From Mesostigma viride (taxonomy: Eukaryota; Streptophyta; Mesostigmatophyceae; Mesostigmatales; Mesostigmataceae): a stretch of 64,000 nucleotides of DNA. Below, piece by piece: positions 23,260-63,500 of the stretch. The notes under the pieces were generated by a model. The model was not told the DNA's origin. It did not search any database and saw only the letters and a list, made by a program, of their open reading frames with translations. Each line of letters opens with the position of its first letter. Within the stretch, counting starts at the first letter, position 1. The stretch covers positions 821,180 to 885,179 of the forward strand of contig RPFO01000644.1 of NCBI GenBank assembly GCA_009746045.1, given 5' to 3'. The position numbers and the translations under genes were made by a program.

Positions 23260-25707
23260 TTGCGTCAATACCTGCTGAGTCAGATTGCGCTTTGCGCTAT
23301 CAATCATGCCCACCCATATCGCCCCTATCCCCCCAGCGTCACCCCGGCCCCTCCACCTTCCACACATGTGTCCACCGATCCTTCCCTTTACTCCACCAGT
23401 CTCCGCTGCTTACGTCACATGTCTCGGCTTATGCAACGCGGCAACTTTCATGCATCCTATCTCGAAGCCTGCAGCTTGAAGAAGCTTACCAGCTTACACA
23501 TTGCCGTCGGGTCGTGCTCCCCAGCTGATCTGCAAGTCCCCCGCTCCCATGCCACTAGTCTGCGAGGCCTTCTCTCACGTATCATTCGGCACCGTGTCAA
23601 TGGGAATGCAGATGCACTGCGTCCGCGCCGTTTACTGATCTCACCTTTCATTCATGCTGCGATGGATGAGCTGTGTCTGCCACACATTCTGCATTTGCCG
23701 CAAGTGCAGGCTGCGATGCCGCTCGTGGTGTGCAACACTTTCGGCACTCCCATTGCCGCCTGGCGTTACTCTCCCACCTTGCATGGGACAAATCGGGTTT
23801 TCAGCAACGGGCAGGTCAGCTAGCTGCGATACAACGCCCACCGAGCTGGCCACCATCTTGGCAGGGCCCTGCCCCTGCCAACAACAACGGTATTTCAAGT
23901 ACCTTGATCCCACCTCACAGCACGTCATGACCGCTGACCTCAGCATCCTGCCGAGCCACACGCGTGTAGACCTTTTTGCCAAAGGCACCAAGTTTCGGCC
24001 GTGGGTCCAGCGCACGTGTGCCAAAGAGGTGAATGCAATGCTCTCAACATCACTGCGCAAATTCTGCAATGCCATGTGCACGGACCTACAGCTTGCTCCC
24101 CTTGCCATGGAACCGTGGTTTCGCGCCGTCATTCACGAATGCAATGCACGTCTCACCAGGCTTGATTACCGTCTCCGGCAGGTCCACCGCACCACCTGGC
24201 TCAACACCACAGATAAAGCACTTCTTGACCACTTCAAGCAGGACTTTATCATCACGTGTGTTGACAAGAGTGCCAACAACTTTGCTTTCATATGCAAGAA
24301 GCACTACCTTGCTACTTTGCAACACGAGTTGGCGTCCAGCCCTACCTATGTTCAGCGTGCACAGTCCACCGCCAGTATCACTGCTGCTCATCGGGCTTTT
24401 CTGCACAGCCAAAACATTTTTGCTCGGGCATTCCTTAAGCGGCAGCGACGCGCCACCACCACTACGTTCCCATATCTGTATCTCACTCTTAAGCTGCACA
24501 AAACTCCTGTTGCTTTGCGCACCATTGCTGCGTCGCATTCAGCCCCACTGATGCCTCTCTCGAAACTCATCTGCCATGCTTTGAATGCTCTTCTCCCCGA
24601 AGCCAATGCATTACATATGGGTGGAGGTGCTGTCGAATGCCGGGTATGAATGCGCTGGTAGTTGGATCGTCATAGACTCAGCCCAAGTACGCCTACGCCT
24701 TGCCGCCCTTAGCCGTTCTAAGACAGCAGCAGAGAAACGTATACCTATGCCCATAGCCACCTATGATTTCACCACTCTATATACCACACTAGATTTGCAC
24801 GATTTGAAAGCTCGTTTAGATAGCCTCCTTACTCGTCTGTATGCACGTAGGCCTCACGGGCGCAACCACCTGCACGTGCGTGTTTCTCAGACCAAGCCCA
24901 CGGCAACGTGGCTCTCATTCAGGGATCGCGGCAGGTGCTATCGTGCGGGATGGTTATAATTATATTATCACGAAGGCTGACCTTGTCCATTGGATCTCTT
25001 ATCTTGTTGATAACACCTTCATCTGTTTTGCGGGCAATGTATACCAACAAGCTATCGGCATCCCTATGGGCACTAACTGTGCCGGGCTCCTTGCAAACCT
25101 CTATCTATACACTTATGAGCTTGCCTTCATGGAGAATCTCATTGCCTCAAACGATGATGTTCTCATCAGGCGTTTTATCCATACATGTCGATACATTGAT
25201 GATGTCATCGCTTTCGACAACCCTGATTTCGCAACCCATTTGTATATCACCGCTGGTCTGCCTGGCATCTACCCGCAAGCGTCCCTCACATTAAAGCTCA
25301 CGTCGGAGGATACTCATTGCAATTACCTCGATCTTAACATTACCCATAACAAGAAGGGCTGGCGTACGGCTGTCTATGATAAGCGCAAGGATCCTAAATA
25401 CCAGCAAATTCCTTTTATTCGTTACCCCGATATTCACAGTCTCCTTTCCCACACAGCAAAATATGGTGTTGTTCTTTCTCAGTTACATCGTTTTTCCCGT
25501 CTTTGTTCTTATCGTGTTGATTTCATCACGACTCTTGTTGAACTCTTGCAGCGTTTATTGGTCAAAGACTATGACCGAGCCATTATGCTCCGTCAAGTCC
25601 GATGTTTTTTGCAACGTCACCCACATCTGTTCGGTGCTGCCCCTTGGCACAAGCTCTACAAACAGGTCGTGGACCGGCTGGATCGCATAGTATCTCCGCA
25701 CATCTGA
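23260..25707 (+). pseudogene. Penelope-like reverse transcriptase (three frames)
   Basis: The N-terminal part (23260-23823) ends MPLVVCNTFGTPIAAWRY. The next frame carries LAGPCPCQQQRYFKYLDP and HVMTADLSILPSH, then a central region to 24649. A third stretch (24655-24850) gives YDFTTLYTTLDLHDL, the first catalytic motif. The last frame (to 25707) has YQQAIGIPMGTNCAGLLANL, the catalytic YIDD at 25193-25204, NYLDLNI and YGVVLSQLHRFSRLCSYRVD. These last blocks are the signature of Penelope-like RTs. At least three frameshifts make it inactive. No telomeric function is implied. Confidence 0.8.
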
Positions 25708-26265: not shown

Positions 26266-26510
26266 TGATGATATTTCTATGCAATATAAAGGCGCGATGG
26301 CCTCTGGGCCACAGCCGTCTTTACTAACGCAAACACTCACCTGTTTCACCTCAACGCAAGAGGCACTTTCCAAAAGTGCGCTGAGCATGCACCGGCCCCC
26401 AAACAAGGCCCGATTCCTCGAAACAAGCGGCTGGAGCACAGAAGCGCCATCACCGGAACCAGCTACAAAAAATTGCCCGCTATGAAGCCTCAGCCTGGCA
26501 ACCCCACGTT

Positions 26511-26644
26511 TGTCGCGTACTCGTGCCAAACTCCCTGCACTGACAGTAGCCCACGACCTCGTTGGCCCTCATGAGGTATGGCTGCATGGGCCGGTGATCG
26601 ATGGGCCACATGCTAGCCTTACCCCACTAGTGCTGCCCACTTTT
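26511..26644 (-). repeat. Repeat B, outer copy (element 3' end)
   Basis: This 134-bp segment is identical to 27776-27909. Its outer end CGCGACA (coding strand) abuts the CGTT flank. Confidence 0.9.
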
Positions 26645-26646
26645 CT

Positions 26647-27773
26647 TAAGACGAGAAGCCAGTGCCAACTGCACTTCTCAAAAAGGTGAGACCTGAGAGT
26701 GAGGTATGACTAGGTTAGGCTTCACACTGTGTTCTTTGTTGCAAATGAAATAACGTTTTTATTACCAATACTCTACCTAACTTGGCAGCTCTGTTTCAGC
26801 AATGGCTGGGCTCGATGAAAGAAAGGAGGGCTGGCCACACTTGCCACGCACCACCATGACCAAGACAGAGTTCAAGGATCCACACAGAGCTACATCCAAC
26901 GCCCTGGTGGAAACACACACTTATCCCAACGAATGCCTCACACTTACGCAATATCTTGCGTCAGCCTTACCACGTAGCCACGCTCAGTATCTGATCCTGA
27001 CGACAACCGCTTTGTCGTCCATACTGCTTCAATTACACCAAAGCTACTCCGTGGCACTCGGCTTTGGTCAGCACCAAGACCTAAAAGTACACAAAATCCT
27101 AAGTCGTTGTCTGCAACGACTCCCTGTTCCGCATATGAAACATATCATCTAGCACTTTCTCTTTAGACGACAAAATCAACTAGACAACCTGGGTAGGCCA
27201 GAAATCCCAGACGACAAAATGTCCTTGTCGCAGATCACTCCAGTGTCGACTTGCCGACCCCTGAGCTTGCCAAACAACTATATCACCAACCAAGCATGTA
27301 CGACAACTAGCTGGCCCTGACGAGAAAAGCTGCCTCGTCGCATTCACAAAAGCGGCTTGCCAGCCTGCCGAATATCAATGCCAATATTGCACGACATTAT
27401 CTACCTGCAGCGGACAGTTCTCGAGATCAATAACGCGCCAGCTTGCGTGCACGTGCATGTTCAGCCTGCACGATAAAGCATAATTGCCAGGCTGGCAGCC
27501 TAGCTTGGTCCGTGTTGTAGTCCAGCAGCCAGTGCGTGCTGCTTGCCAGCGTTGGCACTGACCTCTTGGTGACGCTTGTCAGTACCGCTGTCAACTCCCA
27601 GTGCTGCGCGTCGCACTACGGCGCATGCGTTGCTCCCGTAAGGCCCAAATGCCAAAGGCGTAACAACTCGCACACGCGCAATGCCTATAGCTGCCTCGCC
27701 TCGTCCCCCGGGCCGGCCGCGTGGCGGCCCCGCGTAAAGCCGATACTCGTGCGAATCGGAACGGCGCGCGACA
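26647..27773 (-). repeat. Terminal repeat A, downstream copy
   Basis: These 1127 bp together with the outer B segment form a complete 1263-bp LTR-like unit, TG...CA on the coding strand (27773 to 26511). It should supply the 3' end-processing region; no specific signal was picked out. Confidence 0.85.
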
Positions 27774-27775
27774 GC

Positions 27776-27909
27776 TGTCGCGTACTCGTGCCAAACTCCC
27801 TGCACTGACAGTAGCCCACGACCTCGTTGGCCCTCATGAGGTATGGCTGCATGGGCCGGTGATCGATGGGCCACATGCTAGCCTTACCCCACTAGTGCTG
27901 CCCACTTTT
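27776..27909 (-). repeat. Repeat B, inner copy, overlapping the end of pol
   Basis: These 134 bp are identical to 26511-26644. The segment contains the last five codons and stop of the polyprotein, so the RNase H tail is encoded by terminal-repeat sequence. It ends CGCGACA, then GC, then the TGTCGCG start of repeat A, like two LTR ends joined. Confidence 0.9.
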
Positions 27910-30900
27910 AGCGCGGTGTACAATGGTCATGTTATATTCTTGAATAATCATGGCCCAGCGCGCCAGCTTGCCAGTCAGATTGGCACTTGTCATCAACCAC
28001 TGCAGTGGCTGATGGTCGGTGACCAGCGTGAACTGACGCCCGAACAAGTATGGCCGAAAATGTTTGATGGCCCACACCACGGCCAGAGCCTCGCCCTCAT
28101 ACGATGAGTACTTGGCCTCAGCCGTGTTGTTGCTCCTGCTGGCATACGCCACCACATGTTCCTTGCCATGCACGTCCTTCTGTGCCAACACAGCACCAAG
28201 TCCAACCCTGGACCAATCCGTGTATAGCACAAATGGCTGGGCATAGTCGGGCTGACGGAGTATCGGCGCTGAGGTGAGCTCTGCCTTGATGGTCTCAATG
28301 GCGCGTTGCTGCGCCGGACCCCATGCCCAGACTGCACCTTTCTTCAACAGCTCCGTCAGTGGCTTAACCTTGGTGCTGAAGTTGGGGATATAACCTCGGT
28401 AATACCCCGCCAGCCCCAGGTAAGCCCGCACACCCGCCACATCCGTGGGCGTTGCCGCGTTGACGATCGCTTCCACCTTGGCCGCTTGTGGAGTTCTGCC
28501 GCCAGGAATGATCTGGTGTCCGAGGAAGTCGAGGCTCCGCTGCGCAAACCGACACTTCTCGGGATGCAGCTTCAGGTTGGCTCGCGCCAGTGCCATGCGC
28601 ACCTGCTCAAGGTGCTGGAGGTGTTGCTCAAATGTCTCACTGAAGATGATCACATCATCAATGTAACACGCAGCGAATGGCATGCCATTCAACACTTGAT
28701 CCATGGCACGCTGAAAGATGGCACTCGCATTCCTATGCCCGAAAGGCATCCTGACCCACTCATAGAGTCGGTGGCCCCCCCAGAACGCGAGCTTGCGTTG
28801 GTCACCCTCCGCCACTTGGATTTGGTGAAACCCACTGCGGAGGTCTAGGGATGAGATGAACTGCACGCGTGGCGATATCCGGTCAAGCACATCGTCCACT
28901 CGCGGCATGGGGTACCTGTCCATCGGGGTGTGTGCGTTGAGTTGCCGCAGGTCCGTCGCCATGCGCATCCCAGTCCATTCACCTGTCACCGCATCCTTCT
29001 TGGGCGCCACGACGGTCGCGGCCGCATAGTTGGATGTGGATGACCGAATGATGCCAGCAGCCTCCAGCTCCTCGCATTGTTGCTGCACAAACTCCAGCTC
29101 AGCTTGACTCAGCCGGTGTTGTCGGCGAAACAGTGGCTGATCGGTGTCCAGCGGGACCCGCATCTGCCCACCATTGTAGCATCCCAGCTCTTGACTGCTG
29201 AATGCAAACGCGTTGCGCGCACCTTCCAGCCACTTGAGCAGCCTCGCACGTTGCTCAGCTGTGAGGTGCTCACAGACGCTCCATTGATGGTTTGCTGCCG
29301 GGTCGCTTGCGCTCGAGACATTGTGCACAGCCACCGTGGGACCGCGCACGGCCGCCGACTGAAACAGCATGTATGCCGCCGCTCCCGGCGTAATGCCTCG
29401 CTCTCCCACCTGCCGTTGTGCCTTCGCCACGAGGAACTGAAAGGCCGGAGCCGCCGAGAACACACAGCTGGTGAGGAGCGCAGTCATGAGGATGACTGAC
29501 CATACCTGGCGCCAGGTGTAGGACCACCCTTGGCCCCTGCCGCCTGCACGCTCCGCCTTAGGCACACCAGCCGGCGCAGCACCGGTGGGTGGAGAAGTTT
29601 CACTCTGCGCCTGTGCAGTCGCAGCATGGACGGGAAGTGCAACCCGCTGCACCCTCCGCACACCTTGCGCTGCTAGCAAGGTGTACCCCACCTGCCAGGC
29701 TGACATGGCCTGGCCAATGAGCGACCATCGCTCCACCTCCAGGAGCCCTGGGGCGGCGGATGCACCTTCGGCAAAGCCCATGCTTAGTTCACGAAACCCC
29801 GCGGGTGGCTGAACCAAGAGACCTGTGGCACGCTCCCACACAAGCCCCTTGCCCCGGTCACGATAAGCCTGGGACCCTTGGTAACTGACAAGGGTGGGCA
29901 GTGCTCGCATGGGGGCGCCTGCCTTGTTGACGGGCGCGTAGGGTGCCTGATCATCGTGCTCCACATACTGCGCCGTGAGTTGACTGGGCAACACGACATC
30001 GACCGGTGGCAGCTCAATGTGGCTAGCGACATGCTGCATCACCGCCTGCGTAGAACCTTGGCCAGCGATGTTGGTCCAGAACGCGCGCAGCCGATGGGTA
30101 TTCCCTCCCAGCCCGGCATTGTCCGACACCACGGGTTCCCCCAAAATACCCACAATGGTGCCCCAATCCTCCCGAACAGTGGGGCTGGGACTGTCCACCG
30201 CCACTACGTTTTCAAATAAGTAGGCGGGTGGCACCTGCTGCAGCTGCTGGAGCTCGCCCACAATGCGCAGCATGTCCCAAAATAGGCCGCTCCTGCTGTC
30301 GGCAAGGCCCCGGCCATGCCCAGCCTGGCTCATGCCTTGGCACTCCCAGCCAGCAATGACCAACCCTACCTCGCCATGTTGTGAGATGAGGCGGCGCAGC
30401 TGCTGCTGCCCAAGGAAGCGCACGTCATGAGTGCCCTCGCCGAAGACATCAGCCCAGGCGGATGGAGGAAATTGTGCTGGGTATGCTTGCGACAAGATAG
30501 CGCAGTGGTGCAAATATGCCGCCCTGGCTGTGAGCGATGCCTCCACCGCAATGAGCTTGCTGCATACCCCCCCGCTGCTCAGGAAACCGGCTATGCCGCC
30601 ACCCATACCTGCGAACAGCTCCAGCACGACGGTGGCACGCCCGAAGTCCGGGATGCGTTCCAGCACCTCTGCGCTAAAGCCGGGGTACTGCGTGATGGCA
30701 CCCGGCTGGCGCCGCTTCCCCCCAGCACCCTTGGGCAGTGCCTGACATGCCGCCATCACCCGTGCGCGCACATCGCGCAGGCGTGGCAGGGGCGCAACCT
30801 GGGCAAGCCAACTTTGCCTCTGCGCATCCCGCGCTGGCAACGCCGCAGGCAGCACACACCGGTGCCTATCGCGCGCGCGCTTGTCGCTAGCCGCTTGCGC

Positions 30901-30930
30901 CATGTGCACCGCTTGCGCGTCCGGCCACAC
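27892..30930 (-). CDS. Polyprotein: C5-cytosine DNA methyltransferase / Ty3 RT / RNase H
   Basis: The open frame is 1012 codons and follows gag in the same frame after one TGA. It has no convincing ATG of its own at the start. Methyltransferase ~101-425: LELFAGMGGG (motif I, SAM binding), AGWECQGMSQAG with catalytic Cys197 (motif IV), FENV at 239-242 (motif VI), HRLRAFWTNIAG (motif VIII, DNMT3-like wording), then ELSMGF and RWSLIGQAMSAWQVGY (IX-X). A hydrophobic stretch lies at ~476-492. Ty3 RT ~600-810: SLDLRSGFHQ (D696), CYIDDV (756-759), DFLGH. RNase H ~900-1005: YTDWS (D905), E945, TDHQPL (D972). It ends HRAKSGQH, where other Ty3 elements continue into integrase. The enzyme set would copy the element and may methylate DNA; the latter is inference. 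Confidence 0.9.
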   Translation of the reverse strand: MWPDAQAVHMAQAASDKRARDRHRCVLPAALPARDAQRQSWLAQVAPLPRLRDVRARVMAACQALPKGAGGKRRQPGAITQYPGFSAEVLERIPDFGRATVVLELFAGMGGGIAGFLSSGGVCSKLIAVEASLTARAAYLHHCAILSQAYPAQFPPSAWADVFGEGTHDVRFLGQQQLRRLISQHGEVGLVIAGWECQGMSQAGHGRGLADSRSGLFWDMLRIVGELQQLQQVPPAYLFENVVAVDSPSPTVREDWGTIVGILGEPVVSDNAGLGGNTHRLRAFWTNIAGQGSTQAVMQHVASHIELPPVDVVLPSQLTAQYVEHDDQAPYAPVNKAGAPMRALPTLVSYQGSQAYRDRGKGLVWERATGLLVQPPAGFRELSMGFAEGASAAPGLLEVERWSLIGQAMSAWQVGYTLLAAQGVRRVQRVALPVHAATAQAQSETSPPTGAAPAGVPKAERAGGRGQGWSYTWRQVWSVILMTALLTSCVFSAAPAFQFLVAKAQRQVGERGITPGAAAYMLFQSAAVRGPTVAVHNVSSASDPAANHQWSVCEHLTAEQRARLLKWLEGARNAFAFSSQELGCYNGGQMRVPLDTDQPLFRRQHRLSQAELEFVQQQCEELEAAGIIRSSTSNYAAATVVAPKKDAVTGEWTGMRMATDLRQLNAHTPMDRYPMPRVDDVLDRISPRVQFISSLDLRSGFHQIQVAEGDQRKLAFWGGHRLYEWVRMPFGHRNASAIFQRAMDQVLNGMPFAACYIDDVIIFSETFEQHLQHLEQVRMALARANLKLHPEKCRFAQRSLDFLGHQIIPGGRTPQAAKVEAIVNAATPTDVAGVRAYLGLAGYYRGYIPNFSTKVKPLTELLKKGAVWAWGPAQQRAIETIKAELTSAPILRQPDYAQPFVLYTDWSRVGLGAVLAQKDVHGKEHVVAYASRSNNTAEAKYSSYEGEALAVVWAIKHFRPYLFGRQFTLVTDHQPLQWLMTSANLTGKLARWAMIIQEYNMTIVHRAKSGQH

Positions 30931-30948
30931 GCCCCCCCCCAGTTCTCA
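30928..30948 (-). promoter_or_regulatory. Gag/pol boundary: single in-frame TGA before a G9 run
   Basis: Reading the minus strand, gag ends GGA TGC GGC TGA and the same frame continues GAA CTG, a run of nine G and GTG TGG into the polyprotein with no second stop. This permits readthrough expression of Gag-Pol. A slip on the G run would lose the frame, so readthrough (or a recent nonsense change) is the simpler reading. Confidence 0.6.
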
Positions 30949-33759
30949 GCCGCATCCCCCTGGCTCCACCTCTATGCTGGCGGGCGACACCACTGCAGCC
31001 ACACACGCGTCTAGCGACACCACCCCCTGCGGGTTAGGCTCCGGGTCGCTGCTGCACTGAATGGGAAGAAGCGCCTTTTGCTTCCCCTCCCCCTGCCAAT
31101 CACGGCGGTAGGTCGCAACCTCCAGCCAAGGGTCAATTATGAGCCCGAGGCGATACATGACGTCCATCCCGATAAGGGCTGCATACCCACACCTGTCGAC
31201 CACCAAGGCCGGCACAGCCACGCAGGCCATCCGCTTTGGGTCCGTGGGGTTGAGGATGACGTTGATCAGCATGGAAGTCATTGCATCGGGTCGCGCCGCT
31301 GGCCCTTTCCATCCCTCCACGAGAACGGTGCTGTCTATGAGCCCGCCGTTCTCACGGGTCGCACCACACATCTTGGCCAGCTCCATGGTGATCACGAGCG
31401 GCCCGGCTCCGCCATCCAGCTTGGTGACGGACTTTGCGCTGGGGCACACCATAGGGCCCCAACAAGTGCCGTCCTCGCTGATTGCCTGGAAAGCGATAGC
31501 CGGGGACCCATCAGGGTGCTTTGCCACCGTGACTGTCCTCGGCACCCGTGACATCCGCTCCTCGCGGGTTGCTTCCCGGGGCATGGTTGGTGCTGGGACG
31601 TCTGCCGGGGTTGCCGGCATAACTGGCATGGTGACCCGCCGCGCAGTTTCCGCCACCGGCAATGTGCGTGCGTCTAGGCTGTCGGCGCACCGCTGCAGTG
31701 CCGCAGCTGCTTGGTGCACCAACGTGATGCCCCGCTGCCCGCAGCCATCAATCACTTGCCTGGCAGAAAACAAGGGAGCATCAATCACTCCATCCACTGG
31801 CAAGAATGGTGGCAGCTTGCGCCGCTGCTCGGCGTCGGCGGGGTTCGGGTGCTCCAGCAGCGATGACTCACCGCCGGTTGAACCTGCCGGGAACGATGCA
31901 GGAAGCTGGGGTGGCCCCCCCTCACCATTTCCCGTGGTTGGTAGGAACGACGGCAATGCCCGTGCCTGCTTGCCTCGGGTAGCTGCCTGGACCTCGACGG
32001 CATGGATAGGAGCCCAGAACAAGTCGGGTTGCTCCACCAGCGTATACGCGTCATACGCTTCCATCCCCGCCGCCTGCCCACTCGGTTGGCTGGGTGACGC
32101 CGGCGCTGCCGATACCTCAGCTGCCTGCTCTGTTGGCGTGCTGTCGGCCGCCACCATGGCCGCTGCATGTGCTTGCACGGTCTTGGTGACCACTGGGTAC
32201 TTGCACCCTGCCGGAGCATGGGCGGGCGTTCCAGCCGCGTGCTCCTTCTTGCACTGGGCTGGGCAGGCCCGCTTCACGTGATCTGGCTTCCCGCAGATCC
32301 AACATGCCTTGTGCGGGTCAGCCGTCGCCTGGCCGGTGCTGCTGGAGGCCGTGTTGTCGCCCCCCGCGCTGGCTGGCTTGTCCGCCTGCGACCCAAACTG
32401 CCGGCTGCTTGGTCCACCCCTTCCACCGCTGGACCCTCCACCGCCTGATTGCGCGCCACCCACCCTGTTACCCTTGTGCGCTTGGGCGACTTCTTGGCGT
32501 ACCAGCTCCACTAGGTCCGGGAGACCCCGTGCCTGTCGCCGGTTGAATGCATGCACTTCCGTGCACAGCTGGGCCAGGTCCCAGTGACAACCAAATCTAG
32601 GTTGTGGGATCATGGCAGCTTTTGGACCCAACGCCTTGAGCCACTTCTCACACGCCTCCGCCTCCGTCCATGCCGGGACCTCATCCCGCAAGACCTCCAG
32701 GCGGTCCATCGTGGCGTCAGGCGACTCCTTGTCCCCCACCTTGAAATCATGCCACTCCGCCTCCGCCTTGGTGGAGGAGTGGGCGTACTTGGCGCGCAGA
32801 AGTTCCCACAGCTCCTCGGCAGGGTCGACGTCAAATACCACGTGTTGGTAGTCCGGCAAGCCTTGTTGGTCGCGCCTGTACCACACATCGGATCTTCCCG
32901 TCTTCAGCGCCACCTCATGGTAGCCTGTGACCCACCGCTGCACCAGCTTTTGCGTGTTGCCCGAGAAAAACATTGGGATGTTGTCCATCTCAAAGGACTT
33001 CGGCAGCTGGTTATGCGTGACGATATACTGCTGGTGCAGCCAAGTCTTATATTTCCAATAGGCTTGGTTGATGTCAACAAGCCCACCGTCAGCAGTATAC
33101 CTGTCCTTGAGCTCCACCTGCGCTTGCACCGGCATTCCCACCTTGGATCCCTCAATCGGCGACCCATTGTAGCCCACCGGCATGCTTGGCGTCCTTGGTA
33201 GAGTAGCCACAAACCTCGGCTCCAGCCCATAGCCTCGTTCCACCGTGTATGGACTGCCTCGCTGCAATCCCGGAATGATGCCTGGCCGCACCCACGGTGT
33301 TTGTAGCCGTGGCGTCGCTGGGTTTGTTGGTGCCGGCGCATGCGGCACGCCAAAAGAAAACCCAGTTTGTGCACTAGGCATCCCAGGCACATGCTGCCGC
33401 GACGCCTGCATCTGTGGCGCTTGCGCCTGTGGCTGCACGGATGGTGCCTGCGACATTAAAGGCACCTGCGACTGCAACACCTGCGCTTGGGGCTGCCAAA
33501 CTTGCGCCTGCGGCTGCAACACTTGCGGCTGTGGTAGGTGCGGCGCTGGTGTCAGCGTTGCTTGCGCGGTCCACGTCGCGTGCAGACTTGCAATCTGCGC
33601 CGCCAACTGCGCCGTCTGCTGCTGCTGCAACTGCATAGCCAGCTGTTGCTGCTGCATCTGTTGTTGGGATTGTGCTACATGTTGCAAAATCTGCTGCAAC
33701 ACATCCGCACCCACCCCCTGGCTGGCACTTGGCCCCGGCGCTAGCCCGGTGCCTGCCAA
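30946..33759 (-). CDS. Gag with zinc knuckle and C-terminal protease-like domain
   Basis: This is a 937-codon frame. The N-terminus (~18-60) is Gln-rich and likely coiled, followed by a Pro/Gln/Ala-rich tract to ~160. A capsid-type helical domain lies at ~235-430 (IPMFFSGNTQKLVQRWVTGY and following). A zinc knuckle CWICGKPDHVKRAC is at 486-499. The retropepsin-like region is at ~775-890: LDGGAG at 781-786 in place of the usual D-S/T-G-A, and the second conserved block ALIGMDVMYRLGLIIDP at ~861-877. Gag would form the particle and package RNA, and the protease would cleave the polyproteins. The Ser/Thr-to-Gly change beside the catalytic Asp is unusual and could reduce activity. Confidence 0.85.
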   Translation of the reverse strand: MAGTGLAPGPSASQGVGADVLQQILQHVAQSQQQMQQQQLAMQLQQQQTAQLAAQIASLHATWTAQATLTPAPHLPQPQVLQPQAQVWQPQAQVLQSQVPLMSQAPSVQPQAQAPQMQASRQHVPGMPSAQTGFSFGVPHAPAPTNPATPRLQTPWVRPGIIPGLQRGSPYTVERGYGLEPRFVATLPRTPSMPVGYNGSPIEGSKVGMPVQAQVELKDRYTADGGLVDINQAYWKYKTWLHQQYIVTHNQLPKSFEMDNIPMFFSGNTQKLVQRWVTGYHEVALKTGRSDVWYRRDQQGLPDYQHVVFDVDPAEELWELLRAKYAHSSTKAEAEWHDFKVGDKESPDATMDRLEVLRDEVPAWTEAEACEKWLKALGPKAAMIPQPRFGCHWDLAQLCTEVHAFNRRQARGLPDLVELVRQEVAQAHKGNRVGGAQSGGGGSSGGRGGPSSRQFGSQADKPASAGGDNTASSSTGQATADPHKACWICGKPDHVKRACPAQCKKEHAAGTPAHAPAGCKYPVVTKTVQAHAAAMVAADSTPTEQAAEVSAAPASPSQPSGQAAGMEAYDAYTLVEQPDLFWAPIHAVEVQAATRGKQARALPSFLPTTGNGEGGPPQLPASFPAGSTGGESSLLEHPNPADAEQRRKLPPFLPVDGVIDAPLFSARQVIDGCGQRGITLVHQAAAALQRCADSLDARTLPVAETARRVTMPVMPATPADVPAPTMPREATREERMSRVPRTVTVAKHPDGSPAIAFQAISEDGTCWGPMVCPSAKSVTKLDGGAGPLVITMELAKMCGATRENGGLIDSTVLVEGWKGPAARPDAMTSMLINVILNPTDPKRMACVAVPALVVDRCGYAALIGMDVMYRLGLIIDPWLEVATYRRDWQGEGKQKALLPIQCSSDPEPNPQGVVSLDACVAAVVSPASIEVEPGGCG

Positions 33760-34409
33760 CCCGCTGAGCCGTATCTGCGATGATGGTGTGATGGGAAGTA
33801 CTGTTCCATCTTGAGGACCTGCCGCGCTGCCACCCAGCCCTCCGTTGACGACCGATGTGTCACCACCACCACCACCAACGCCACCACTCCGATCGGCGAC
33901 CCCCCCCCATTGCCCATCCCGGAACCCGAGGCTGCTGGTGGGACGAGTGGCCCATTGCCGTTGTCGCCAGTTGGCAAGGATGCCTGCGTGCCTGCAGCAT
34001 CACCCTGCCGCGGTGCGCCATCCACCACCGTGCCTTGGTTGGGGTTGGCGCCCCCTTGATGTTGACCATCTTGGTCTGCCATCAAGCTTCGTGCTTGTGC
34101 TCTCGTGAGCACCGTTTCTGCAACCAATCAGTGGGCTACAGAGTGAGCAGACGTAGTGCAAAATCAGTATGCACCACAGGGGCCACCACTTGGCCCCTTC
34201 AACTTGCTGGCACCACACCAGATGCAAGGGCAAGGAGAAAGAAAACAATTGCCTGAAAGCTGAAAACCAATGCTGCTTCAGGACCTTCTTGCAAGCTGCC
34301 TGCCTTGACAGCCTTGCACAGCCAGCTTTACCTCTATTCCTAGTATTCAGGAAGAGGCCTCAGCCTTGACCAAGCTTACCTACCAACTCTCAGTCTAGCT
34401 CTGTGTGGA
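33760..34409 (-). other. Untranslated leader of the Ty3-type element
   Basis: The 650 bp lie between repeat A and the gag start. A short in-frame extension of gag is possible: a minus-strand frame 33741-34127 overlaps but is in another register. I found no convincing tRNA primer-binding site next to the repeat boundary at 34410. Confidence 0.4.
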
Positions 34410-35535
34410 TAAGACGAGAAGCCAGTGCCAACTGCACTTCTCAAAAAGGTGAGACCTGAGAGTGAGGTATGACTAGGTTAGGCTTCACACTGTGTTCTTT
34501 GTTGCAAATGAAATAACGTTTTTATTACCAATACTCTACCTAACTTGGCAGCTCTGTTTCAGCAATGGCTGGGCTCGATGAAAGAAAGGAGGGCTGGCCA
34601 CACTTGCCACGCACCACCATGACCAAGACAGAGTTCAAGGATCCACACAGAGCTACATCCAACGCCCTGGTGGAAACACACACTTATCCCAACGAATGCC
34701 TCACACTTACGCAATATCTTGCGTCAGCCTTACCACGTAGCCACGCTCAGTATCTGATCCTGACGACAACCGCTTTGTCGTCCATACTGCTTCAATTACA
34801 CCAAAGCTACTCCGTGGCACTCGGCTTTGGTCAGCACCAAGACCTAAAAGTACACAAAATCCTAAGTCGTTGTCTGCAACGACTCCCTGTTCCGCATATG
34901 AAACATATCATCTAGCACTTTCTCTTTAGACGACAAAATCAACTAGACAACCTGGGTAGGCCAGAAATCCCAGACGACAAAATGTCCTTGTCGCAGATCA
35001 CTCCAGTGTCGACTTGCCGACCCCTGAGCTTGCCAAACAACTATATCACCAACCAAGCATGTACGACAACTAGCTGGCCCTGACGAGAAAAGCTGCCTCG
35101 TCGCATTCACAAAAGCGGCTTGCCAGCCTGCCGAATATCAATGCCAATATTGCACGACATTATCTACCTGCAGCGGACAGTTCTCGAGATCAATAACGCG
35201 CCAGCTTGCGTGCACGTGCATGTTCAGCCTGCACGATAAAGCATAATTGCCAGGCTGGCAGCCTAGCTTGGTCCGTGTTGTAGTCCAGCAGCCAGTGCGT
35301 GCTGCTTGCCAGCGTTGGCACTGACCTCTGGTGACGCATGTCAGTACCGCTGTCAACTCCCAGTGCTGCGCGTCGCACTACGGCGCATGCGTTGCTCCCG
35401 TAAGGCCCAAATGCCAAAGGCGTAACAACTCGCACACGCGCAATGCCTATAGCTGCCTCGCCTCGTCCCCCGGGCCGGCCGCGTGGCGGCCCCGCGTAAA
35501 GCCGATACTCGTGCGAATCGGAACGGCGCGCGACA
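34410..35535 (-). repeat. Terminal repeat A, upstream copy (LTR lacking its last 134 bp)
   Basis: These 1126 bp match 26647-27773 almost perfectly. The copy begins TGTCGCG on the coding strand but lacks the B segment that would end a normal LTR in CA. It is followed by the gag leader. A 116-codon frame on the opposite strand (34565-34915) is probably incidental. Confidence 0.85.
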
Positions 35536-35877
35536 CGTTTCTTCATCCAATACCCATTCCAGCGTCGAATATTAAGTGGAAAGCATGCAATGTTAGCCGC
35601 CACGTATTGCTGGCTTAGCTGCACCATGAATCCGCCGCGGATGCCACCTATTTCCCCCTTGCGGGGGCGTGGAAATGGCAAAGGCATAGAGTTACTATCC
35701 CGCAGCCCTACCGCGAGGGAGATTTTTTTAAAAACTCAATGAATTATGCTAAAAATTAGCTCGATCATTGATTAGTAACTCGTTGATTCCCCGACAATAA
35801 TTTGGCCAGCCATAGCTCGGTAGGATGTCTGGCAAGTAGTACTGCGGTCGTGCTGCGTGCATAGCACCTCGGGCAGC

Positions 35878-36320
35878 CTTGTGTGGAATCGCCTGGCCAT
35901 ACCTTGTGTGGAATCGCCTGGCAGCGCATTCCAACCGTAGAGACTTGTTTCGAGTACCGGCGGGTGAAACTCTGGTGCTAGATACTCTGGGCCATACCTT
36001 GTGTGGAATCGCCTGGCATCGCATTCTAACCGTAGATACTTGTTTCGAGTACCGGCGAGTGAAACTCCGGTGCCAGATACTCTGGGCCATACCTTGTGTG
36101 GAATCGCCTTGGCATCGCATTCTAACCTAGATACTTGTTTCGAGTACCGGCGAGTGAAACTCCGGTGCCAGATACTGGGGGCATACCTTGTGTGGAATCG
36201 CCTTGGCATCGCATTCTAACCGTAGATACTTGTTTCGAGTACCGGCGAGTGAAACTCCGGTGCCAGATACTCGGGGCCATACCTTGTTTTGAAATTTGGA
36301 ATCGCCTGGCATCGCCTTCC
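35878..36320. repeat. 95-bp tandem repeat, about 4.5 copies
   Basis: CATACCTTGTGTGGAATCGCC recurs with starts at 35898, 35993, 36088, 36182 and 36278, giving periods of 94-96 bp. Each unit also contains CTTGTTTCGAGTACCGGCG and GAAACTCCGGTGCCAG. The minus-strand frames across it are a consequence of the repeat. Confidence 0.85.
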
Positions 36321-48686: not shown

Positions 48687-49581
48687 AATTAATTTGACTT
48701 GTGCTCCCGTTGGGGAGTCACGGAGCATTAACCCCGATCGATGGATGGATGGATGGATGGATGGATGGATGGATGGATGGATGGATGGATGGATGGATGG
48801 ATGGATGGATGGATGGATGGATGGATGGATGGATGGATGGATGGATGGATGGATGGATGGATGGATGGATGGATGGATGGATGGATGGATGGATGGATGG
48901 ATGGATGGATGGATGGATGGATGGATGGATGGATGGATGGATGGATGGATGGATGGATGGATGGATGGATGGATGGATGGATGGATGGATGGATGGATGG
49001 ATGGATGGATGGATGGATGGATGGATGGATGGATGGATGGATGGATGGATGGATGGATGGATGGATGGATGGATGGATGGATGGATGGATGGATGGATGG
49101 ATGGATGGATGGATGGATGGATGGATGGATGGATGGATGGATGGATGGATGGATGGATGGATGGATGGATGGATGGATGGATGGATGGATGGATGGATGG
49201 ATGGATGGATGGATGGATGGATGGATGGATGGATGGATGGATGGATGGATGGATGGATGGATGGATGGATGGATGGATGGATGGATGGATGGATGGATGG
49301 ATGGATGGATGGATGGATGGATGGATGGATGGATGGATGGATGGATGGATGGATGGATGGATGGATGGATGGATGGATGGATGGATGGATGGATGGATGG
49401 ATGGATGGATGGATGGATGGGGACACATGCACAATCCTACCGGTCTAATCTATCTACAGCATCAAGCCAACTCTATTCTAAGCTTTCTACCCTACATAGG
49501 GGTCCTGTCTGGCGTGCTTCCCGCGTACGTGTTTGCCAACGCGGGCGCTTCCCCACGGGAGGGGGTTCGTTGTCCTCTATG
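48687..49581 (-). mobile_element. LINE-C insertion with 8-bp TSD and giant CATC repeat
   Basis: Target duplications ACCTGGGG lie at 48679-48686 and 49582-49589; the interrupted sequence is continuous in the other arm of the host element. The minus strand has a 5'-truncated 3' UTR (GGGGAAGCGCCCGC, ACCGGTAGGATTG), an expanded CATC block, GGGGTTAATGCTCC and the GGGAGCAC hairpin. Only a short AT tail is left. Confidence 0.8.
48741..49420. repeat. Perfect (GGAT)n microsatellite, 680 bp (~170 units)
   Basis: The tetranucleotide is uninterrupted. It lies exactly where other LINE-C copies have three to six CATC units, so it grew from the element's own 3' UTR. The very long frames it creates on both strands are artefacts of the repeat. 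Confidence 0.95.
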
Positions 49582-58614: not shown

Positions 58615-58874
58615 GTAGGTGTGTGGTGGTGGGGGTGGGTCTGGTTGCATGGTCTAGGATGTACGGCATGTGTATTTGTTGGTTTCCTCTCAGATGACCG
58701 GTTTAGTCGGTAAACGCCATGTGCATGCCGCGTGCCAAGGAATGATTGCATCATTTAATACGTACCTGTATTTGTTCTTTATATATACTACTGTAGAAGT
58801 AAAATATATGGCACAAGCTGTGCGACGGTGGTCTCTATATGTGCGATGTTATAATGTGCTCTGTGAAGAACACT

Positions 58875-61800
58875 GTAGTGGATGTAGGCGCACGCTTGTG
58901 TGGTGGATGTAGGCGCACGCTTGTGTGGTGGATGTAGGCGCACGCTTGTGGTGGATGTCATACACGCTTGTGTGGTGGATGTAGGCGCACGCTTGTGTGG
59001 TGGATGTAGGCGCACGCTTGTGTGGTGGATGTAGGCGCACGCTTGTGTGGTGGATGTAGGCGCACGTGTGTGGTGGATGTAGGCGCACGCTTGTGTGGTC
59101 GATGTAGGCGCACGCTTGTGTGGTGGATGTAGGCGCACGCTTGTGTGGTGGATGTAGGCGCATGCCTGTGTGGTGGATGTAGGCGCACGCTTGTGTGGTG
59201 GATGTAGGCGCACGCTTGTGTGGTGGATGTAGGCGCACGCTTGTGCGGTGGATGTAGGCGCACGCTTGTGCGGTGGATGTAGGCGCACGCTTGTGTGGTG
59301 GATGTGGGCGCACGCTTGTGTGGTGGATGCAGGCGAACGCTTGTGTGGTGGATGTAGGCGCACGCTTGTGTGGTGGATGTGGGCGCACGCTTGTGTGGTG
59401 GATGCAGGCGAACGCTTGTGTGGTGGATGTAGGCGCACGCTTGTGTGGTGGATGTAGGCGCACGCTTGTGTGGTGGATGTAGGCGCACGCTTGTGGTGGA
59501 TGCAGGCGCACGCTTGTGTGGTCGATGTGGGCGCACGCTTGTGTGGTGGATGTAGGCGCACGCTTGTGTGGTGGATGTGGGCGCACGCTTGTGTGGTGGA
59601 TGTGGGCGCACGCTTGTGGTGGATGTAGGCGCACGCTTGTGTGGTGGATGTAGGCGCACGCTTGTGTGGTGGATGTAGGCGCACGCTTGTGTGGTGGATG
59701 TGGGCGCACGCTTGTGTGGTGGATGTAGGCGCACGCTTGTGTGGTGGATGTAGGCGCACGCTTGTGTGGTGGATGTAGGCGCACGCTGGTGGTGGATGTA
59801 GGCGCACGCTTGTGGTGGATGTAGGCGCACGCTTGTGTGGTGGATGTAGGCGCACGCTTGTGTGGTGGATGCAGGCGCACGCTTGTGTGGTGGATGTCAT
59901 ATAGCTTGTGTGGTGGATGTGGGCGCACGCTTGTGTGGTGGATGCAGGCGCACGCTTGTGTGGTGGATGCAGGCGCACGCTTGTGTGGTGGATGTAGGCG
60001 CACGCTTGTGTGGTGGATGTCATACACGCTTGTGTGGTGGATGTAGGCGCACACTTGTGTGGTGGATGTAGGCGCACGCTTGTGTGGTGGATGTAGGCGC
60101 ACGCTTGTGTGGTGGATGCAGGCGCACGCTTGTGTGGTGGATGTGGGAGCACGCTTGTGTGGTGGATGTAGGCGCACGCTTGTGTGGTGGATGTCATACA
60201 CGCTTGTGTGGTGGATGTAGGCGCACGCTTGTGGTGGATGTAGGCGCACGCTTGTGTGGTGGATGTGGGCGCACGCTTGTGTGGTGGATGTCATACACGC
60301 TTGTGTGGTGGATGTAGGCGCACGCTTGTGTGGTGGATGTCATACACGCTTGTGTGGTGGATGTGGGCGCACGCTTGTGTGGTGGATGTAGGCGCACGCT
60401 TGTGTGGTGGATGTAGGCGCACGCTTGTGTGGTGGATGCAGGCGCACGCTTGTGTGGTGGATGTGGGCGCACGCTTGTGTGGTGGATGTAGGCGCACGCT
60501 TGTGTGGTGGATGTAGGCGCACGCTTGTGTGGTGGATGTAGGCGCACGCTTGTGTGGTGGATGTCATACACGCTTGTGTGGTGGATGTGGGCGCACGCTT
60601 GTGTGGTGGATGTGGGAGCACGCTTGTGTGGTGGATGTAGGCGCACGCTTGTGTGGTGGATGTCATACACGCTTGTGTGGTGGATGTAGGCGCACGCTTG
60701 TGGTGGATGTAGGCGCACGCTTGTGTGGTGGATGTGGGCGCACGCTTGTGTGGTGGATGTCATACACGCTTGTGTGGTGGATGTAGGCGCACGCTTGTGT
60801 GGTGGATGTCATACACGCTTGTGTGGTGGATGTGGGCGCACGCTTGTGTGGTGGATGCAGGCGCACGCTTGTGTGGTGGATGTGGGCGCACGCTTGTGTG
60901 GTGGATGTAGGCGCACGCTTGTGGTGGATGTAGGCGCACGCTTGTGTGGTGGATGTAGGCGCACGCTTGTGTGGTGGATGTAGGCGCACGCTTGTGGTGG
61001 ATGTTGGCGCACGCTTGTGTGGTGGATGTAGGCGCACGCTTGTGTGGTGGATGTGGGCGCACGCTTGTGTGGTGGATGTAGGCGCACGCTTGTGTGGTGG
61101 ATGTAGGCGCACGCTTGTGTGGTGGATGTAGGCGCACGCTTGTGGTGGATGTAGGCGCACGCTTGTGTGGTGGATGTGGGCGCACGCTTGTGTGGTGGAT
61201 GTAGGCGCACGCTTGTGTGGTGGATGTAGGCGCACGCTTGTGTGGTGGATGTAGGCGCACGCTTGTGCGGTGGATGTAGGCGCACGCTTGTGTGGTGGAT
61301 GTAGGCGCACGCTTGTGTGGTGGATGTAGGCGCACGCTTGTGTGGTGGATGTGGGCGCACGCTTGTGTGGTGGATGTAGGCGCACGCTTGTGTGGTGGAT
61401 GTAGGCGCACGCTTGTGTGGTGGATGTAGGCGCACGCTTGTGTGGTGGATGTGGGCGCACGCTTGTGTGGTGGATGTAGGCGCACGCTTGTGGTGGATGT
61501 AGGCGCATGCTTGTGTGGTGGATGTAGGCGCACGCTTGTGTGGTGGATGTCATGCACGCTTGTGGTGGATGTGGGCGCACGCTTGTGTGGTGGATGCAGG
61601 CGCACGCTTGTGTGGTGGATGTCATGCACGCTTGTGTGGTGGATGTAGGCGCACGCTTGTGGTGGATGTAGGCGCACGCTTGTGTGGTGGATGTAGGCGC
61701 ACGCTTGTGTGGTGGATGTAGGCGCACGCTTGTGTGGTGGATGTCATGCACGCTTGTGTGGTGGATGTAGGCGCACGCTTGTGTGGTGGATGCAGGCGCA

Positions 61801-63500
61801 CGCTTGTGGTGGATGTCATGCACGCTTGTGTGGTGGATGTCATGCACGCTTGTGTGGTGGATGTCATGCACGCTTGTGTGGTGGATGTGGGCGCACGCTT
61901 GTGTGGTGGATGTAGGCGCACGCTTGTGGTGGATGTAGGCGCACGCTTGTGTGGTGGATATAGGCGCACGCTTGTGTGGTGGATGTAGGCGCACGCTTGT
62001 GTGGTGGATGTAGGCGCACGCTTGTGTGGTGGATGCAGGCGCACGCTTGTGTGGTGGATGCAGGCGCACGCTTGTGTGGTGGATGTGGGCGCACGCTTGT
62101 GTGGTGGATGTAGGCGCACGCTTGTGTGGTGGATGTGGGCGCACGTTTGTGTGGTGGATGTAGGCGCGTGCTTGTGTGGTGGATGTAGGCGCACGCTTGT
62201 GTGGTGGATGTAGGCGCACGCTTGTGTGGTGGATGTAGGCGCACGCTTGTGTGGTGGATGTAGGCGCACGCTTGTGTGGTGGATGTCATACACGCTTGTG
62301 TGGTGGATGCAGGCGCACGCTTGTGTGGTGGATGCAGGCGCACGCTTGTGTGGTGGATGTAGGCGCACGCTTGTGTGGTGGATGTAGGCGCACGCTTGTG
62401 TGGTGGATGTAGGCGCACGCTTGTGTGGTGGATGTAGGCGCACGCTTGTGTGGTGGATGTAGGCGCACGCTTGTGTGGTGGATGTAGGCGCACGCTTGTG
62501 TGGTGGATGTAGGCGCACGCTTGTGTGGTGGATGTAGGCGCACGCTTGTGTGGTGGATGTAGGCGCACGCTTGTGTGGTGGATGTAGGCGCACGCTTGTG
62601 TGGTGGATGTAGGCGCACGCTTGTGTGGTGGATGCAGGCGCACGCTTGTGGTGGATGTAGGCGCACGCTTGTGTGGTGGATATAGGCGCACGCTTGTGTG
62701 GTGGATGTCGGCGCACGCTTGTGTGGTGGATGTAGGCGCACGCTTGTGTGGTGGATGTAGGCGCACGCTTGTGTGGTGGATGTAGGCGCACGCTTGTGTG
62801 GTGGATGCAGGCGCACGCTTGTGTGGTGGATGTAGGCGCACGCTTGTGTGGTGGATGTGGGCGCACGCTTGTGTGGTGGATGTAGGCGCACGCTTGTGTG
62901 GTGGATGTAGGCGCACGCTTGTGTGGTGGATGTAGGCGCACGCTTGTGGTGGATGTATGCGCACGCTTGTGTGGTGGATGTAGGCGCACGCTTGTGTGGT
63001 GGATGTCATACACGCTTGTGTGGTGGATGTGGGCGCACGCTTGTGTGGTGGATGTCATACACGCTTGTGTGGTGGATGTAGGCGCACGCTTGTGTGGTGG
63101 ATGTAGGCGCACGCTTGTGTGGTGGATGTGGGCGCACGCTTGTGTGGTGGATGTAGGCGCACGCTTTTGGTGGATGTAGGCGCACGCTTGTGTGGTGGAT
63201 GTGGGCGCACGCTTGTGTGGTGGATGTAGGCGCACGCTTGTGTGGTGGATGTAGGCGCACGCTTGTGTGGTGGATGTAGGCGCACGCTTGTGCGGTGGAT
63301 GTAGGCGCACGCTTGTGTGGTGGATGTAGGCGCACGCTTGTGTGGTGGATGTAGGCGCACGCTTGTGTGGTGGATGTCATACACGCTTGTGTGGTGGATG
63401 TGGGCGCACGCTTGTGTGGTGGATGTAGGTGCACGCTTGTGTGGTGGATGTAGGCGCACGCTTGTGTGGTGGATGCAGGCGCACGCTTGTGTGGTGGATT
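58875..63500. repeat. 25-bp minisatellite, ~4.6 kb, inside the hydrolase intron
   Basis: The unit is GTGGTGGATGTAGGCGCACGCTTGT, with roughly 185 copies by length. Variants are GATGTGGGC, GATGCAGGC, a short unit GATGTCATACACGC and units missing TGTG. Because 25 is not a multiple of 3 and the unit has no stop on either strand in most registers, it makes long meaningless frames (up to ~560 codons). It begins ~260 bp after the splice donor at 58615. Confidence 0.95.

Follow-up and report, generated by a model that had tools for sequence, protein, structure and literature searches.

A Ty3-type retrotransposon family of Mesostigma viride with a Dnmt3-like methyltransferase, split repeats and junctions that may record end-joined circles

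How does a retrotransposon come to carry its own C5-cytosine methyltransferase (MTase), and how could an element whose terminal repeats are divided between its two ends insert into a chromosome? Both questions are raised by a locus in the streptophyte alga Mesostigma viride, within the 64,000-nucleotide stretch of contig RPFO01000644.1 analysed here (the window). The original prediction was of a Ty3-type element with an MTase and a reverse transcriptase (RT) in one frame, the MTase placed ahead of the RT, with split repeats and without integrase; self-silencing, marking of cDNA or protection from a host nuclease were suggested as what the MTase could do.

The window element and its sister copies

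The element in the window belongs to a Ty3-type retrotransposon family and is a recent copy with an internal deletion. It is a single insertion, and the limits originally given for it (26511–35535) are exact; its coding strand is the minus strand, and it is flanked by a 4-bp target-site duplication (TSD), CGTT at 26507–26510 and again at 35536–35539 (AACG in the list of copies below). Read along the minus strand, the layout is A1, gag, MTase-RT-RNase H, B1, GC, A2, B2. Repeat A1 (34411–35535) has the plus-strand terminus CGCGACA and repeat B2 (26511–26646) the plus-strand terminus TGTCGCG, such that the element ends form an inverted 7-mer. The gag frame (30946–33759) contains a zinc knuckle at about 32260–32307, with a zf-CCHC match at 0.0038 that lies below the family cut-off, and a protease-like segment, KLDGGA; it ends in a TGA immediately before the pol frame. 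The latter (27892–30930) is a truncated open reading frame of 1012 amino acids, in which Pfam domains confirm the predicted one-frame combination: the Dnmt3-like C5-cytosine MTase, placed by motifs and fold, at 29641–30645, the Ty3-type RT (PF00078) at 28510–29004, and RNase H (PF17917, PF17919) at 27934–28323. Beyond the deletion point (27909/27910), repeat B1 (27776–27909) is followed by a GC spacer (27774–27775), the centre of the palindrome CGCGACA-GC-TGTCGCG (27767–27782), and by the 1126-bp repeat A2 (26648–27773), both repeats being on the minus strand. One extra base (26647; A on the coding strand) lies at the junction of A2 and B2, a position that varies from copy to copy, and B2 consists of 134 bp identical to B1 plus a CT adjoining A2. 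Across 1127 aligned columns, A2 departs from A1 at a single mismatch and a single gap, and B1 and B2 match throughout their 134 bp, which marks the insertion as recent.

A protein search of the Mesostigma genome (439.9 Mb, 2243 contigs; 45 of 3962 candidates scored) returned at least 46 matches, which fall into two families. Six sister copies are 100% identical to the window copy over residues 1–1006 and have an open frame of 1642 residues; a further one has a frame of 1090 residues. The second family is 68% identical to the first, and many of its frames reach 2074 residues. Among predicted M. viride proteins, P0130 is 99% identical to the window MTase over 71% of the query, and P0001 starts like the family-2 frame of locus L034. 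In one full frame from each family (P0006 from contig C777, family 1; P0007 from contig C998, family 2), Pfam identifies DNA_methylase, RVT_1, RNase H, Integrase_H2C2, rve and a PHD finger, with no match to the tyrosine recombinase family PF00589 in either. The coding part of full copies comprises Gag-PR, MTase, RT, RNase H, DDE integrase and PHD finger. Hence, the predicted absence of integrase holds for the window copy and fails for the element. The MTase-RT order and the split repeats, on the other hand, are borne out in the sister copies as well as in the window, against the counter-case of MTase and RT lying in separate elements. This shared domain order makes the MTase a family trait; between the two families its amino acid identity is 66%, with synonymous sites near saturation.

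Compared with the sister copies, the window element has lost integrase, PHD finger and polypurine tract (about 1.9 kb), and its deletion fuses pol directly to the start of B. Two other copies, C1967 and C1813, are likewise joined to the start of B after truncation at other points; the joins lie at base 3 of B in the window, base 1 in C1967 and base 7 in C1813, and the left breakpoints all differ. One might take such copies for a separate non-autonomous lineage, in which the loss of integrase is adaptive and the MTase has a new role, given that gag, MTase and RT are still open in the window copy, whose A repeats are nearly identical, and that C1967 and C1813 are also cut before integrase. This reading is largely refuted, and we regard it as very improbable: the window deletion also takes the polypurine tract, the breakpoints of the three truncated copies differ, and the sequence at the window breakpoint is present in 18 further loci (9 distinct copies), all of which continue past it, C1967 included, which is cut further on. 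Integrase loss as a family trait is likewise ruled out by the longer sister frames and the Pfam integrase of the two full frames. It is also worth considering that long repeats and nearly identical copies are the setting in which an assembly artefact might arise, or that a host gene was joined here by accident at a single locus. We give this hardly any credence; with 46 matches in two families, copies at many different sites with their own TSDs and a shared domain order, and relatives in other algae, both forms of it are refuted.

Several features of the coding region deserve mention. Where gag meets pol (30914–30975 in the window; loci L001–L016), there is a TGA and a run of 9–10 G; some copies have the two in the same frame with a stop between them, others have them in different frames, and in L010 they are open throughout. 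Readthrough or frameshifting may occur at the G run. The gag-pol boundary was located in 14 family-1 loci, and 13 of them have DGGA as the protease motif (L011 gave no match), against DSGA in both family-2 loci (L034, L035), such that the family-1 protease may be altered or inactive. A membrane-like hydrophobic stretch, WSVILMTALLTS, lies between MTase and RT at about residues 470–500 of P0006, and P0007 has a similar one at the corresponding position.

The methyltransferase and its relatives

The MTase has a C5-MTase fold (of two structure models, the first was poor, with a pLDDT of 57.7, and the second good) and collinear motifs nearest to DNMT3, which we take to be motifs I (ELFAGMGGG), IV (WECQGMS), VI (FENVV) and VIII (HRLRAFW). 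Proline usually precedes the catalytic cysteine of motif IV; in Mesostigma, it is glutamate. Of 125 aligned relatives, 86 have Glu at this residue, 27 Pro, 9 Ser and 3 Asp, and by parsimony it changes 16 times on a tree without outgroup. We infer that the putative MTase is an active CpG enzyme that would act on the DNA of the element itself or on the insertion site. The alternative, a catalytically dead domain that the polyprotein retains for a structural or DNA-binding purpose, could draw on the variability of the residue before the cysteine and on the report that KnitGypsy-Dnmt3 showed no activity in yeast, a result considered inconclusive by its authors in the accessible text (PMC5890265). 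We consider it unlikely, as all 125 relatives retain the cysteine itself and the Glu-Asn of motif VI, and 98–99% of them the Arg-x-Arg of motif VIII. Depletion of CpG was examined as a trace of self-methylation and gives a weak signal only (observed/expected 0.755 in the coding part of the element, 0.829 in the window without the element).

Where did this MTase come from? When the MTase of a metagenomic element served as query, 141 proteins matched, itself included; the 120 listed include proteins named from Haematococcus, Monoraphidium, Chlamydomonas eustigma and Cymbomonas. Domain orders were read in 127 proteins, comprising five matches from an earlier search, three translations of our own and otherwise matches to the metagenomic MTase. 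The order RT-RNase H-MTase-integrase-PHD is found in 77 and MTase-RT-RNase H-integrase-PHD in two, both from Mesostigma, while the remaining 48 show some of the domains or none; outside Mesostigma, the MTase follows RT or RNase H wherever they are seen together in this set. For the 87 proteins with MTase, RT, RNase H and integrase, MTase distances correlate with pol distances (r 0.71, reached by none of 500 permutations). This supports a long common history of MTase and pol, with the qualification that relatedness inflates the correlation. The Mesostigma MTases have a mean identity of 0.32 to the others, compared with 0.45 among the others, and the corresponding values for pol are 0.433 and 0.454. 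The Mesostigma MTase is thus the more divergent, while its pol is not. The Glu-Cys that the N-terminal MTase of Mesostigma shares with many relatives favours relocation over a second capture, though the Glu is at the residue that changes 16 times on the tree.

A candidate for a second N-terminal case, the Haematococcus protein P0003 (gag-PR-MTase), was rejected, since its MTase groups with elements of the common order, with modest support (0.63–0.86); the protein may be a gene-model chimera. In a search for standalone host relatives, run on candidates of limited length (the 8000 sharing most words), none of the 14 matches was named as a host methyltransferase. No DNA-level relatives of the algal elements were found in viral_contigs or genome_contigs, and no match carried the name of Klebsormidium nitens in the searches for relatives, where most matches are unnamed and, in one search, 120 of 141 were listed.

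Split repeats, junctions and the route of integration

Both families have the split direct repeats A1-coding-B1-A2-B2, the layout of DIRS elements. DIRS-like retrotransposons use a tyrosine recombinase and make no TSD, whereas the two full frames here have Integrase_H2C2 and rve instead, and TSDs are present. Where both ends were read, 10 of 11 copies have a perfect 4-bp TSD: in family 1 the window copy (AACG), C1579 (TACT), C2100 (CTTG), C1613 (GGCC), C777 (TCTC) and C1813 (TACA), in family 2 C1563 (CTGG), and three solo A.B units (CGAG, GAAA, ATCC); family-2 copy C998, with both ends read, has none. These TSD-bearing copies span split-repeat, single-unit and solo A.B forms, and their duplications indicate that integrase acts at the start of A and the end of B. 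The count leaves out copies with one end missing, truncated or unread, among them C1837, C1690:6.82M and C1967 (stretch examined without the A1 start), C1657 (3′ end unread), C1690:7.72M (B2 cut short), and 7 of 10 A/B places, namely five split-repeat copies with the 5′ end outside the stretch, and C335 and C1106, which have no A start at the expected position.

Other characters are those of Ty3/Gypsy elements. RT, RNase H and DDE integrase follow in that order in the two full frames (the window copy is without integrase), and the 4-bp TSD falls within the Ty3/Gypsy range of 4–6 bp. A polypurine tract precedes B1 in both families, as expected before a 3′ long terminal repeat (LTR): in family 1, the full copies read have GAGGGGGGGG directly before B1, and the family-2 tract differs from it in having one G fewer. 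The ends, however, are not identical complete LTRs, the left being A alone and the right B-A-B. In neither family do the 20 bases that follow A1 contain the TGG of a tRNA 3′-end primer site. Five family-1 copies (C1579, C1837, C1690:6.82M, C1813 and C1967) end in a single B and have no A2.

The two internal junctions behave differently. Pattern searches, which for both required exact flanks, found the A/B junction of family 1 at 26 places, 14 of them blunt. Among the 12 that are not, eight carry the first 1, 3, 4 or 5 bases of ATCCA, the sequence that follows A1; one has the G of the tract side and three are of other kinds. In family 2, 170 places match. Of the 100 listed, 84 are equally long, whereas the other 16 vary in length; a T run in A accounts for one of the 16 and another is differently built, and one place holds ACTCGAAGAGACT, 13 bases identical to the sequence following A1 there. 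The B1-GC-A2 junction, used as a control, is exactly GC at 20 of 21 places genome-wide; the sole exception (C800:10554–10582) has TGCAGC for GC, four extra bases. When the 26 A/B and 21 B-GC-A places were paired, 15 pairs had the observed order and the alternative order did not occur, leaving 11 A/B and six B-GC-A places unpaired. Two family-2 A/B junctions on the same strand of C998 (2217184 and 2218589) are 1405 bp apart, perhaps tandem A.B units or a permuted form.

A variable A2/B2 junction with bases following A1, set against a constant B1-GC-A2 palindrome, is the new observation here. Two-LTR circles are known to be recognisable by additional primer-site bases where the LTR ends have been joined. 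The combination seen here is the signature of end-joined two-LTR circles that were opened inside the LTR by integrase, and we lean, if only somewhat, towards insertion from such circles. The replicating LTR would be B-GC-A, from the polypurine tract to the end of A, and ordinary reverse transcription would yield LTR-coding-LTR. Each joining of the LTR ends into a circle would make the A/B junction anew and could trap a few stray bases of the primer site there; integrase would then cut the palindrome after CA on both strands, dropping the GC, and the opened circle, once inserted, would take the split-repeat form A1-coding-B1-GC-A2-B2. Truncated cDNA ends joined to the same LTR (B) end would give deleted copies such as C1813 and C1967, while the window copy, which also has A2-B2, would need an extra joining step or a later deletion. 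The integrase of a foamy virus is reported to act in this way on the palindrome of its circle junction, cutting each strand after CA so that a 2-base overhang results (PMC1180852), and the CA-GC-TG spacing of the Mesostigma palindrome would fit cleavage of that kind. Recombination between genomic repeats can be an alternative source of the single-unit and solo forms.

The polypurine tract before B1, the TSDs, the variable A/B and constant B-GC-A junctions and the truncated joins near the start of B all support the circle route. Counting against it are the lack of a TGG primer site within 20 bases after A1 in both families, C998 with its missing TSD, the one B-GC-A place with four extra bases, and the single length at 84 of the 100 listed family-2 A/B places. 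Its main difficulty is that two equal palindromes should also yield A-B-GC-A-coding-B, yet all 15 paired places have the other order. It is possible that one palindrome is preferred, that the alternative order collapses by recombination between its closely spaced A repeats and so escapes notice, or that a DIRS-like route was used, whereby an RNA from A1 to B2 is copied, B1-GC-A2 serves as a splint that restores the ends, and integrase inserts the full-length molecule with no end-joined circle. The repeat layout is that described for DIRS elements (PMC5890265), and both the constant B-GC-A and the fact that all 15 paired copies share one order agree with a process that is templated and has a set orientation. 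However, the A/B junction would then be copied, yet 12 of 26 family-1 places are not blunt, often with bases following A1; the joins of the three truncated copies fall no more than 7 bases into B; and a polypurine tract beside B1 is an LTR-type signal. We treat the DIRS-like route as a genuine possibility, though not a probable one. Two-LTR circles are commonly regarded as leading nowhere in the replication of retroelements. If the circle route is correct, junctions of circles appear to be preserved in many natural insertions of a single family, which makes the dead-end question testable by sequencing.

Known systems, a possible role for the palindrome, and the rest of the window

It is informative to set these elements beside those already described. 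The nearest is KnitGypsy-Dnmt3 of K. nitens (de Mendoza et al. 2018), reported with Gypsy domains and, in one figure legend, DIRS-like repeats (PMC5890265). Going by that description, it resembles the Mesostigma elements in its Gypsy domains, Dnmt3-type MTase in the Pol frame, DIRS-like repeats, streptophyte algal host and MTase under purifying selection, and is the one brief precedent for split repeats in an element of this type; unlike the present account, its accessible text is silent on target duplications, on variation at the junctions and on how the element integrates (PMC5890265). Its authors offer cDNA methylation as an idea and infer acquisition of the MTase in the K. nitens lineage (PMC5890265). 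The relatives found here suggest that the association of MTase and Ty3 elements may be older or more mobile than that, occurring as it does in several green algae and in two domain orders. SymbioDIRS-Dnmt3 and other DIRS-type MTase elements share the A-coding-B-A-B arrangement, with the SymbioDIRS MTase also in Pol (PMC5890265), but have a tyrosine recombinase where the Mesostigma elements have a DDE integrase and 4-bp TSDs. The MTase-bearing Ty3 elements of chlorophytes and metagenomes, known from proteins alone, have the same MTase family and mostly RT, RNase H, integrase and a PHD finger, with the MTase between RNase H and integrase and not before RT. Retroviral two-LTR circles, as in foamy virus, are alike in the cut after CA and the 2-base overhang proposed for Mesostigma (PMC1180852); the retroviral palindrome lies at the LTR-LTR joint, whereas that of Mesostigma is inside the LTR and its cleavage is inferred. 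Retrotransposon DNMT3s are briefly mentioned in a 2025 paper (PMC12344493, accessible in part). In the literature searched, by titles and openings of abstracts and with subscription journals mostly outside, there was no account of the A/B junction evidence.

The Mesostigma elements link two oddities, captured methyltransferases and split repeats, and this invites speculation. Were integration to proceed from circles, every split-repeat insertion would keep a cuttable integrase palindrome inside it. That palindrome has 4 CpG in 16 bp, where the mean over the window element is 1.03. By analogy with restriction-modification systems, the MTase might methylate the palindrome in chromosomal copies and so shield them from their own integrase. 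We think this distinctly doubtful; if true, it would explain the recurrence of methyltransferases in split-repeat elements (DIRS, SymbioDIRS, KnitGypsy and Mesostigma). Bisulfite data have been reported for M. viride, in connection with epigenetic regulation (PMC6947507).

The window has other features. At 23654–25707 on the plus strand, RT-like motifs seen by eye in two open frames (YIDDVI, GIPMGTNC) suggest a Penelope-like element, with no Pfam match at 0.01. Four copies of a 95-bp unit lie close beside the retrotransposon at 35895–36287, a GATG array of 171 copies occupies 48736–49420, and a tandem array of a 25-bp unit in 187 copies, with a strong skew of G over C, extends from 58874 to 63499.
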